NCBI RefSeq assembly: GCF_947631165.1
Contig: NZ_CANRKH010000015.1
Coordinates: 1-64,000 of the forward strand
Length of the DNA stretch: 64,000 bases
Reading direction: 5' to 3'
Source of the DNA: an uncultured Dysosmobacter sp.
GTDB taxonomy: Bacteria; Bacillota; Clostridia; Oscillospirales; Oscillospiraceae
The translations under genes were made by a program, and so were the position numbers. The notes below the pieces were generated by a model. It saw only the letters and a program-made list of their open reading frames with translations. It was not told the origin of the DNA and searched no databases. Shown in pieces: positions 4,983 through 33,000 of the stretch (its first letter is position 1; each line of letters starts with the position of its first letter).

Positions 4983-5067
4983 GGCAGGCGCATTTTACAG
5001 GCGTTTTACCAGCCTGCGATAGCGAGATTTACAGGAAACGACATAAACTGAGAAAGGAGAGGATGCC

Positions 5068-6072
5068 ATGCGGGTCACGTTTATCAACGTCGGCTATGGG
5101 GACGCCGTCTTATTTCAGGCGGAGAGCGGCTACACTGCTTTGCTGGACGGCGGAAGTGCTCTGCCGGCGGAATTTGCTGGAGACCCCTATCGCATTCCCG
5201 CCGCAGAGTACTTGAAGTCCCAGGGGATCAGCCATATCGACGACCTAATGATCTCCCACATCCACGAGGATCACGTCTGCGGCCTGGAGCCGATCCTGGA
5301 GCAGACCACCGTAGGCAGGCTTTTTGTGCCTTACCCGACGGAGCCGTTTCTGGGGGGGCAGGAGCTGCATCCAGGCCCCCAGGCGCCCCGCAGCGTACCG
5401 CTGTACACCAATGCTCTCAACGCCTATCGCCGCATCCTGCTGCGGGCCGTGGACCAGTCCGTCCCGGTGACGGTCCTTCATGCTGGAGATGCTCTGGAAC
5501 TGACTGAGGGGCTGACAGTGCGGGTCCTGGCTCCCAAGCCCGCTTCTATCCAGAGCTATATAGAGCTGGTGGAGAATGCCTACAAGACGGTTGGCGGCCC
5601 GGACCGGACCACTGCGCTGCTGGGCCAATTGGACGGCATGTCGAACCACACCAGCTTGCTGCTGCGGTTTGAGCTGGAACAGACGGTGCTGCTGGCGGCA
5701 GCGGACAGCTGTCCCCGCCAGTGGAATGAGGTCCCTGATTTTTTGCTCGAAAATGTGAACGTTCTCAAATTACCGCATCACGGGCAAATCGACTCGATCA
5801 GCGAACATTTTATGGCAAAAATGCCCCTTTCCCATGTGATCACCACCGCCTCTTCCGACCGGCGGTACAACAGCGCCAACCCGGCGGTGTATGAGCGGCT
5901 GAGCGCCATGGCCCCAGCGGGAAGGGCCCCCAGCTTTCTGTTTACGGACGAGCGGGAATATCCGCCCTACTTCTCCCAGCCTGAAGGTTTTCAGGCCATC
6001 ACTCTTGTAATGGATTCCGGCGGGATACGGACGGAATTTATTAAAATCAATAAAAAGGAGAATTCAAGATGA
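5068..6072 (+). CDS. MBL-fold metallo-hydrolase (ComEC/Rec2-like)
   Basis: ISHIHEDHVCGLE and KLPHHGQIDS motifs. Confidence 0.85.
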   Translation: MRVTFINVGYGDAVLFQAESGYTALLDGGSALPAEFAGDPYRIPAAEYLKSQGISHIDDLMISHIHEDHVCGLEPILEQTTVGRLFVPYPTEPFLGGQELHPGPQAPRSVPLYTNALNAYRRILLRAVDQSVPVTVLHAGDALELTEGLTVRVLAPKPASIQSYIELVENAYKTVGGPDRTTALLGQLDGMSNHTSLLLRFELEQTVLLAAADSCPRQWNEVPDFLLENVNVLKLPHHGQIDSISEHFMAKMPLSHVITTASSDRRYNSANPAVYERLSAMAPAGRAPSFLFTDEREYPPYFSQPEGFQAITLVMDSGGIRTEFIKINKKENSR

Positions 6073-7640: not shown

Positions 7641-9146
7641 ATGGAACAATTTTTAGGCGGACTGCAGATCCTGGCGCAGTGGCAGAACTTTCTGATCATC
7701 CCTCTGGGCCTTGCCATCGGCATCGTGGTGGGGGCGATTCCCGGTCTGACCTCTGATCTGGGCATCATCCTCTGCATCCCCCTTACCTATGGCATGGACC
7801 CCACCATGGCCATCCTGATGCTGCTGGCCATCTACTGCGGCGGCACCTACGGCGGCTCTATCACCGCAATTCTTATCAACACCCCCGGCACCTCGGCCAA
7901 CGCGGCCACACTGTTTGACGGCTACCCCATGACAGTGAAGGGCAAAGCCTTTAAAGCTCTGCAAATGGCCCTGTTTGCCTCCACCATCGGCGGCCTTATC
8001 AGTGCTTTTGCACTGCTGTTCCTGGCACCCCTGATCGCCAAGATCACCCTGCTGTTCGGGCCTGCCGAATACTTTGCCCTGGCGGTCTTTGGCCTGTCGG
8101 TCATCGCCGGCGTTTCCAACAACAGCATTTTCAAGGGACTTATCGGCGCATGTATCGGCCTGTTCATGGCCACCATCGGCGTGGACTCCATCAGCGGCAC
8201 GGCCCGGTTCATCTTCGGCCAGCGGAAGCTGATGGCAGGCATCGACCTCATCATCGCCCTTATCGGCCTTTTCGCCATCTCCGAGATCCTGATGAAGTCC
8301 AAGTACGATCCCAAAACAGATCACAAGACCATCAGCGCCTCGGCCATCACCAAGGATAAGATCACCAAAGACGAATACCGCCGCTGCCGCAAGCCCATTG
8401 CACTGGGTTCCCTCATCGGTGTTATCATCGGCGCGACCCCCGGCACCGGCGGCGGTCTGGCGGCCTTCATCGCCTATAATCAGACCAAGCAGGCGTCCAA
8501 GCACCCCGAGACCTTTGGCCACGGCGAGATCGAGGGCGTGGCAGCCTCCGAATCCGCCAACAACGGCGCATGCGGAGCTACCATGATCCCCATGCTGACT
8601 CTGGGTGTTCCCGGCGACGGCGCCACCGCCATCCTGATGGGCGCCTTCATGCTCCACGGCATGGTCCCCGGCCCCACGTTGTTTGCGGAGCAAGGCAATG
8701 TGCTGTATGCCATCATGATCGGCCTGATCGTGGTCAATATTTTCATGTACATCATCGGCAACGTATTTACCAGGTTCTACGCTCACATCACCCGCATTCC
8801 CTATGAGATCCTGGCTCCTATCGTGCTGACCTTCTGCATCGCCGGTTCTTATTCCACCAACAACCGCGTGTATGACATCTATATCATCCTGATTTTCGGC
8901 ATCGTGTCCTACTTCCTGCGGCGCATGGACTTCCAGCTGGTCCCCATTCTGCTGGGCATCGTTCTTGGCCCCTTGGCCGAAAAGAATTTCCGCCGGGCCA
9001 TGGTCATTTCCGAGGGCAGCTTCAAGATCTTCTTCACCCGTCCCATCAGCTGTGCGTTCATCGTCATCGCGGTGGCCTCCGTGCTGATCTTCGCGTGGAA
9101 GAACTACAAGTCCAACAAGCTGGCAAAGGAAAATGCCGCCAAATAA
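7641..9146 (+). CDS. Tripartite tricarboxylate transporter permease (TctA family)
   Basis: GAIPGLTSDLGI, YGGSITAILINTPGT, TPGTGGGLAAFIAYNQTK; large membrane protein. Confidence 0.95.
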   Translation: MEQFLGGLQILAQWQNFLIIPLGLAIGIVVGAIPGLTSDLGIILCIPLTYGMDPTMAILMLLAIYCGGTYGGSITAILINTPGTSANAATLFDGYPMTVKGKAFKALQMALFASTIGGLISAFALLFLAPLIAKITLLFGPAEYFALAVFGLSVIAGVSNNSIFKGLIGACIGLFMATIGVDSISGTARFIFGQRKLMAGIDLIIALIGLFAISEILMKSKYDPKTDHKTISASAITKDKITKDEYRRCRKPIALGSLIGVIIGATPGTGGGLAAFIAYNQTKQASKHPETFGHGEIEGVAASESANNGACGATMIPMLTLGVPGDGATAILMGAFMLHGMVPGPTLFAEQGNVLYAIMIGLIVVNIFMYIIGNVFTRFYAHITRIPYEILAPIVLTFCIAGSYSTNNRVYDIYIILIFGIVSYFLRRMDFQLVPILLGIVLGPLAEKNFRRAMVISEGSFKIFFTRPISCAFIVIAVASVLIFAWKNYKSNKLAKENAAK

Positions 9147-32246: not shown

Positions 32247-32350
32247 AAAAAAGACAGAACGCGGGCGGCCCACAGGGCCGCCCGCGTTCTGGTTTGATAT
32301 AGAGAAAGGAGAGGGAAAATGGTGTGTGTCGGTCAAGCTTCCCGCTTGAC
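32247..32350 (-). ncRNA. Candidate trans-acting small RNA (~100 nt)
   Basis: Minus-strand TTGACA (32380-32385) N17 TATGAT (32357-32362); 5' hairpin GTCAAGC-gggaa-GCTTGAC; unstructured C/U-rich CCATTTTCCCTCTCCTTTCTC; terminator stem 32256-32290 followed by U6. Confidence 0.6.
32256..32290 (-). terminator. Intrinsic terminator of candidate sRNA
   Basis: AGAACGCGGGCGGCCC-aca-GGGCCGCCCGCGTTCT, A6 on + strand adjoining (U6 on minus). Confidence 0.88.
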
Positions 32351-32553
32351 GGTTTCATCATATCGGGCCGCCGGTGAATTGTCAACAGGGAATCCAGAAT
32401 CTTCATAATTTGTTTACAACCCTCTGGATATCCACGATTTTTGTTTACAAAACGTTCAAAAAATATCAACATTTTGCATATTGACTGCCTGCGGCGGGCA
32501 TGCTAGTATTTAGTACACTAACTTTTAGCACACTAAATATTTAGAAAAGGAGG

Positions 32554-33000
32554 ATGGGTATGGACCATCCCAATGCTTTGGGACCTGTGCTGGGCTGCTG
32601 CGCCCATTTGGCGAAAGAGCGGATGGACGCGCGGCTGTCCGGCTACGACGTGACCCCCGCCCAGACCCACGCCCTGCTGTATCTCCACCACCACGGGGGC
32701 AGCGCGCCTCAGTGCGAGCTGACGGCCTTTTGGAAGGTGAAGCCTTCCACGGCCAACGGCATTTTGGACCGGATGGAGGAGAAGGGCCTGGTGCGGCGGA
32801 CCGTCATTGGCAGCGACGCCCGAAAGCGCTTGATAACCCTGACGGAAAAGGGCGAGGAGCGGCAGCTGCTGTTCCGGGAGCGGTTCATGGACACGGAGCG
32901 GGCGCTGCTCCGGGGCTTCACCCTGGAGGAGGAGCAGACGCTACGGAGCCTTTTGGACAGGATCATCCGTAATCTGGAGGAGGACCGGAAACTATGCTGA
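32554..33000 (+). CDS. MarR family transcriptional regulator
   Basis: Winged-helix; VKPSTANGILDRMEEKGLVRRTVIGSDARKRLITLTEKG. Confidence 0.93.
   Translation: MGMDHPNALGPVLGCCAHLAKERMDARLSGYDVTPAQTHALLYLHHHGGSAPQCELTAFWKVKPSTANGILDRMEEKGLVRRTVIGSDARKRLITLTEKGEERQLLFRERFMDTERALLRGFTLEEEQTLRSLLDRIIRNLEEDRKLC

Follow-up and report, generated by a model that had tools for sequence, protein, structure and literature searches.

The LhrC family of Listeria monocytogenes (LhrC1-5, Rli22 and Rli33-1) consists of RNAs of 105-121 nt that occur in several copies per genome and are built from a 5' stem-loop, a single-stranded stretch and a terminator, with UCCC or CU-rich motifs that pair with Shine-Dalgarno (SD) regions (PMC4132741, PMC8079631). 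Control of LhrC1-5 and Rli22 lies with the two-component regulator LisR, in the case of lhrC5 via a region upstream of -53 (PMC4132741, PMC8079631). In RoxS/RsaE of Bacillus and Staphylococcus it is C-rich regions that pair with SD sequences, expression is driven by the response regulators ResD and SrrA with a conserved site near -65, and RsaE has been described as the sole trans-acting small RNA (sRNA) besides 6S RNA that is conserved between S. aureus and B. subtilis (PMC4409812). FsrA, SprD and other UCCC-containing sRNAs of Firmicutes also bind SD sequences through this motif (discussed in PMC4132741). In the gut Clostridia of the GTDB family Oscillospiraceae, abundant as they are, hardly any trans-acting sRNA is known, and a literature search for sRNAs in Oscillibacter, Dysosmobacter and gut genera related to them returned nothing relevant.

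We analyzed a locus from this family that resembles LhrC in its layout, with a stem-loop, a single-stranded CU stretch and a terminator within about 104 nt. It lies on the minus strand at positions 32247-32350 of the window, the 64,000-nucleotide stretch of an uncultured Dysosmobacter sp. under study here, and was delineated by homologues of the same anatomy and by two covariance models, R1, built within the genus, and R2, a cross-genus model. Judged from sequence comparison, the locus is an independent, conserved transcription unit with an SD-complementary core that is predicted to be exposed. The window copy matched no known Rfam RNA, neither at the gathering score nor with E values of up to 10, and 20 cross-genus loci likewise gave no match at the gathering score.

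Transcription is expected to start near 32350, downstream of a -35 element TTGACA (32380-32385, minus strand) and a -10 element TATGAT (32357-32362, minus strand), both identified by promoter scan and column identity. This arrangement, TTGACA-N17-TATGAT at 32385-32357, had been pointed out in the initial annotation and is indeed present, with 11 of 12 consensus matches. Although six promoter-like matches were seen in the region where 1.2 were expected, we regard conservation, rather than this excess, as the decisive evidence for the unit. Two upstream boxes on the minus strand add to the earlier description. The proximal box, GTTGTAAACAAATTATGAA (reverse complement TTCAYAATTTGTTTACA), occupies 32402-32420, 16 nt upstream of the -35 element, and the distal box, TTTTGAACGTTTTGTAAACAAA, is an 11-bp direct repeat type at 32440-32461.

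The predicted RNA begins with the hairpin GTCAAGC-GGGAA-GCTTGAC (32332-32350, minus strand), found exactly where it had been reported. It is followed by the single-stranded C/U core ACCAUUUUCCCUCUCCUUUCUCUAU, 25 nt in length (32299-32323, minus strand), and the unpaired C/U stretch noted previously at 32322-32296 of that strand reads CCATTTTCCCTCTCCTTTCTCTATATC. Its complement is AGAGAAAGGAGAGGGAAAAUGGU, an idealised SD sequence together with the start codon AUG, and the core includes both UCCC and CUCCUUUCU, the latter being the anti-SD letters at the 3' end of 16S rRNA. A terminator stem-loop (32255-32291, minus strand) completes the unit. The stem that had been given as 16 pairs comprises 17, with the 3-nt loop as described, and the letters UC sit between it and the U6 tract, which was read from the sequence at 32247-32252 of the minus strand. 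In the predicted fold of a 106-nt transcript (-50.0 kcal/mol) exactly these two hairpins form and the C/U stretch stays open, in agreement with the earlier assignment. Note that the U tract following the stem is poor in some relatives.

Conservation was assessed by a BLAST search with a 161-nt region in 199 relatives. Of the 86 genomes in the genus, Oscillibacter/Dysosmobacter, 60 contain the whole unit, at one locus in each, with the best homologues being 75-87% identical, and practically no match was obtained outside the genus among the relatives searched. In the window genome it is a single copy, apart from the terminator stem, which matches itself on the opposite strand. When named genomes were scanned with the core pattern, 32 loci were obtained, every one of them the same RNA gene, that carry the labels Oscillibacter, Dysosmobacter or uncultured relatives and include O. 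valericigenes An860 and An890 as well as Oscillibacter sp. 1-3. Column identities were derived from 30 loci picked by BLAST rather than by the core pattern, so that they are not conditioned on the latter. They descend in a staircase from the -10 element (0.99) and the C/U core (0.985) over the proximal box (0.93), the -35 element (0.92) and the distal box (0.86) to the hairpin and terminator (0.78-0.79), and reach low points in the promoter spacer (0.57), the 14 nt that separate the two boxes (0.54) and the region downstream of the terminator (0.38). Invariant columns number 13 of 19 in the proximal and 8 of 22 in the distal box, and 25 of the 30 loci share one and the same core, ACCATTTTCCCTCTCCTTTCTCTAT.

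For the analysis of covariation we used an alignment of 33 sequences, 32 of which had been chosen by a core pattern that leaves the stems untouched. Standard pairs make up 99.1% of the pair cells, both sides have changed in 16 of the 21 pairs, and the 92 cells with double changes compare with 17 in shuffled alignments; none of 500 shuffles matched any of the observed covariation measures, and sliding the partners reduced pairing to 35-47%. Most of the covariation originates from the terminator, where 99.2% of cells are paired and double changes occur at 14 of 16 modelled pairs. The 5' hairpin, with 98.8% of cells paired and a loop that varies in sequence and length, adds two covarying pairs out of five modelled. 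The initial annotation had named a lack of conservation in relatives as grounds to abandon its reading; relatives do preserve the C/U motif as well as the two hairpins, and the covariation is strong. Its proposal of a small RNA of about 100 nt is thus upheld by a conserved unit with covarying hairpins. In two genus members, L070 (around 1501-1620) and L036 (around 7783-7898), the anti-AUG part of the core is gone (CGATATTTTCCC and CACCAATTTCCC) and CCCTCTCCTTTCTCT is kept, and for this reason the SD-complementary part seems to be the essential one.

Beyond the genus, R1 gave weaker matches in other genera, many of which, when read individually, consist of a 5' hairpin, a C/U tract, an ACA-rich link and a long terminator. 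Within the GTDB family, R2 produced matches in 242 of the 401 genomes and 67 of the 92 genera, but as this model favours pyrimidine tracts and terminators, weak matches are not to be counted individually. A closely similar core, CCCATTTCTCCCTCTCCTTT, is present in genus g94, and across genera the exact sequence of the tract is retained less than its C/U character. Genera g94 and g121 contain tandem pairs or a triple, one genome holds two copies back to back with their own promoter elements, and duplicated copies in other genera possess their own boxes, -10 element and terminator apiece. The tandem arrays of g94 (L275 at 145-612, L225, L240, L241, L252 and L245) comprise two or three C/U-rich sRNA genes, with a TTTACAAAAAGTTCAC-type box and a terminator belonging to each. 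In genome G313 we observed at least six dispersed loci (L226-L231) whose terminator stems are nearly identical, which suggests a recent amplification. The family-wide and multicopy nature of these RNAs goes beyond what the initial annotation had described. In other families R2 scored 50-57 bits in a few genomes; among six such matches that were read, L286 alone is plausible and L287 is ambiguous, and L282, L288, L289 and L292 were dismissed as members, as they look like terminators following a pyrimidine tract and have no boxes.

R2 contains nothing upstream of the -10 element, and the occurrence of boxes in this region is therefore a test independent of the model. The pattern TTYACA-N5-TTCAY (at least 10 of 11 positions) was found within 80 nt upstream in 55 of 70 fetched matches, compared to a mean of 0.61 (maximum 3) after shuffling and 2 of 68 control windows; the 70 matches span many genera, and include paralogues and close relatives, so that they do not represent 70 independent events. 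Upstream of the -10 element its positions peak at 37, 48 and 59 nt, an 11-bp phase. Members of genera g1, g91 and g140, and partly of g30 and g126, instead carry the box in reverse orientation, TGTAAACAAATTGTGAA, about 16 nt upstream of a normal -35 element. The TGTAAA-N5-TGTGAA-type box is conserved about 16 nt upstream of -35, and the proximal box occurs in the same orientation and with this spacing in other genera (L246, L256 and L257).

Related boxes occur at other genes, too. In seven genomes the genus-type box is found 4-13 times per genome, versus 0-2 for a backward control, and in G000 and G007 the box pattern is about tenfold above the backward control. Recurrent sites lie upstream of ctsR, hrcA and htrA and, in each of six genus genomes, of cstA, and further ones upstream of genes for NAD synthase, a CvpA-like protein and a CBS-domain protein. 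At ctsR the box precedes all 15 of 15 genes from two genera, with 10 to 12 of 12 positions matching. In these loci (L313-L327) a conserved TTCACAATTTGTTTTCA box is located some 130-155 nt ahead of the match to the CtsR domain, and adjoins on the upstream side the CtsR operator-like repeats GGTCAAAGAAAGTCAAA. In six genus genomes TTTGTGTACAATTTGTGAATAAG is conserved between a gene for a GntR/FadR-type regulator and an operon of a small protein and cstA (near locus position 1501 in L138-L141, L149 and L150).

Response regulators of the OmpR/PhoB type usually recognize direct repeats that are one helical turn apart, and the 11-bp direct repeats suggest that a putative stress regulator of this type acts on the boxes. 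Upstream of pstS-like genes (L097-L105 and L109) we observed CTTTACA-N4-CTTTACA, which is distinct from the sRNA boxes and likely constitutes the Pho box of these bacteria. Control of the sRNA by the Pho system was rejected, as the pst promoters carry this related but different CTTTACA-type repeat and the sRNA one of the TTCACA type. As phosphate control is unsupported in view of the differing pst repeat, protein, envelope or starvation stress appears to be the more likely inducing signal.

The search for targets did not settle on a specific mRNA. In G000 no target with a long complement was found, either with a 22-nt pattern that allowed up to three mismatches or with a G-U-tolerant pattern, and with a 16-nt pattern in five genomes near-full-length matches were about as frequent as in a backward control. 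For the 54 start regions predicted in the window, the median pairing energy was -13.6 kcal/mol for the C/U segment versus -13.9 kcal/mol for its reversed copy. The strongest local predictions were a metallo-beta-lactamase gene (-25.4 kcal/mol) and gltD (-25.0 kcal/mol), the latter presumed from its own sequence and not named via a family search. Complements of the C/U segment had been seen before at the ribosome-binding sites (RBS) of the metallo-beta-lactamase gene, where we located one at 5053-5070, and of tctA, and both are present; as a target, the metallo-beta-lactamase gene did not hold up, as the same RBS pattern does not precede this gene in five relatives. The sequence GAGAAAGGAGG, or a similar one, stands before the ATG of gltD in G000 and G007, and AAAGGAGAGG before an ATG was found at different genes in each of six genomes. 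With the patterns searched, in G000 and in the sets of five and six genomes, no conserved mRNA target with a long complement was thus detected.

Several readings of the locus other than a trans-acting sRNA have to be weighed against these observations. On the plus strand the core reads as a perfect RBS, AGAAAGGAGAGGGAAAATG, with an ATG and a 29-aa frame, such that this RBS of a short gene could be what is conserved. We give this next to no credence, as the encoded peptide varies between 14 and 83 aa from species to species, indels whose lengths are not divisible by three directly follow the ATG, the ATG itself is lost in L036 and L070, a covarying terminator stem lies just upstream, and the conserved -35 and -10 elements are on the minus strand. 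The 88-aa open reading frame across the locus that had been remarked upon does exist; it has no Pfam match, and relatives do not preserve its frame. The unit might also be a cis-acting leader or attenuator, or the terminator of some transcript, given that the window has a DUF2975 gene downstream of it on this strand. This gene, however, has an extended -10 promoter-like site of its own at 32179-32151, the downstream gene differs among loci, a conserved promoter belongs to the unit itself, and tandem copies elsewhere come with their own boxes, -10 element and terminator, all of which makes a leader highly improbable. On the other side of the locus a marR-family regulator gene (32554-33000, plus strand, Pfam MarR) is transcribed divergently and followed by two ABC exporter genes. 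Most of the 32 named loci retain this gene order, as does another genus (L078), and the boxes are situated in the promoter region that the two sides share, as one would expect if the RNA acted mainly on this operon. Still, pairing with the marR start region (-18.6 kcal/mol) is hardly better than that of a shuffled C/U sequence (-17.1 kcal/mol; 19 loci), and unrelated genes neighbour the RNA in other genera; we consider such a role very unlikely, and the marR-exporter neighbour is probably not part of the sRNA's function.

What these readings leave is a real, conserved and uncatalogued sRNA gene, and that the locus encodes one we regard as almost certain. Of the readings, only an independently transcribed RNA of about 105 nt fits the fixed succession of promoter, hairpin, C/U segment and terminator, the free drift between these elements, and the tandem duplications in other genera. 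The core of such an RNA could serve as a binding site for a protein, be it an RNA chaperone, an S1-like protein, PNPase or Rho, with titration or processing as the outcome in place of mRNA pairing. The 25 nt of the core are conserved far beyond the needs of SD pairing, no target with a long complement was found, and across genera the C/U character outlasts the exact sequence, as would suit a protein site. On the other hand, the exact letters are kept within the genus (25 of 30 loci), with CUCCUUUCU and mostly an anti-AUG segment at SD-like spacing, and this retention of exact letters points to base pairing; moreover, C/U-rich sRNAs that pair with SD sequences are proven in Firmicutes (PMC4132741, PMC4409812). 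We therefore hold the protein-site reading to be rather unlikely, and a trans-acting, stress-controlled anti-SD sRNA to be the probable one. The trans-acting anti-SD role we infer by analogy with the described systems.

According to this trans-acting reading, a response regulator of the OmpR/PhoB type would turn on the RNA under protein or envelope stress or in starvation, and the same regulator would appear to control ctsR, hrcA, htrA and cstA as well. The exposed C/U core, with the letters of the 16S rRNA 3' tail, could then pair with the SD and start regions of several mRNAs and block the loading of ribosomes, so that expression of these mRNAs would fall, in a mode of action like that of LhrC in Listeria or RoxS in Bacillus. 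More tentatively, the window RNA may belong to a hitherto undescribed class of stress sRNAs in Oscillospiraceae, family-wide and often multicopy, that is part of an OmpR/PhoB-type regulon together with HtrA, a protease, and two heat-shock repressors, CtsR and HrcA, and in which the C/U core would broadly slow the initiation of translation under stress, a possibility that we would not yet favour. If true, this would represent a post-transcriptional layer of the stress response in these gut bacteria, tied by a promoter element to ctsR, hrcA and htrA, and a class absent from Rfam would provide a ready model for how a single anti-SD core picks its targets.

Compared to LhrC, the window RNA has no match in sequence or, even at E up to 10, in Rfam, and the host lineages differ. 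UCCC sites are located in loop A, in the single strand and, for LhrC1-5, in the terminator loop of the Listeria RNAs, whereas the window RNA has only one, in the single strand. LhrC is multicopy, the window genome holds one copy, and other genera of the family hold several copies and tandem ones. Where LhrC is induced by LisR under envelope stress, the window RNA shares direct-repeat boxes with ctsR, hrcA and htrA. RsaE differs in possessing several C-rich regions in place of one long C/U core, again with no Rfam match between them. RoxS/RsaE have the ResD/SrrA site near -65, and the window RNA has the TGTAAA-N5-TGTGAA-type box about 16 nt upstream of the -35 element. FsrA and SprD have the UCCC motif in common with the window RNA, and differ in their control and in the lack of an Rfam match. 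With the 3' end of 16S rRNA the core has CUCCUUUCU in common and can thus compete for the same mRNA sites; unlike the 16S tail, it is part of a dedicated, terminator-ended RNA, and its complement spans the spacer and the AUG. Most likely, then, this is a new sRNA family of a known functional kind, in which the spread, the copy number and the link to heat-shock promoters are the surprising parts.
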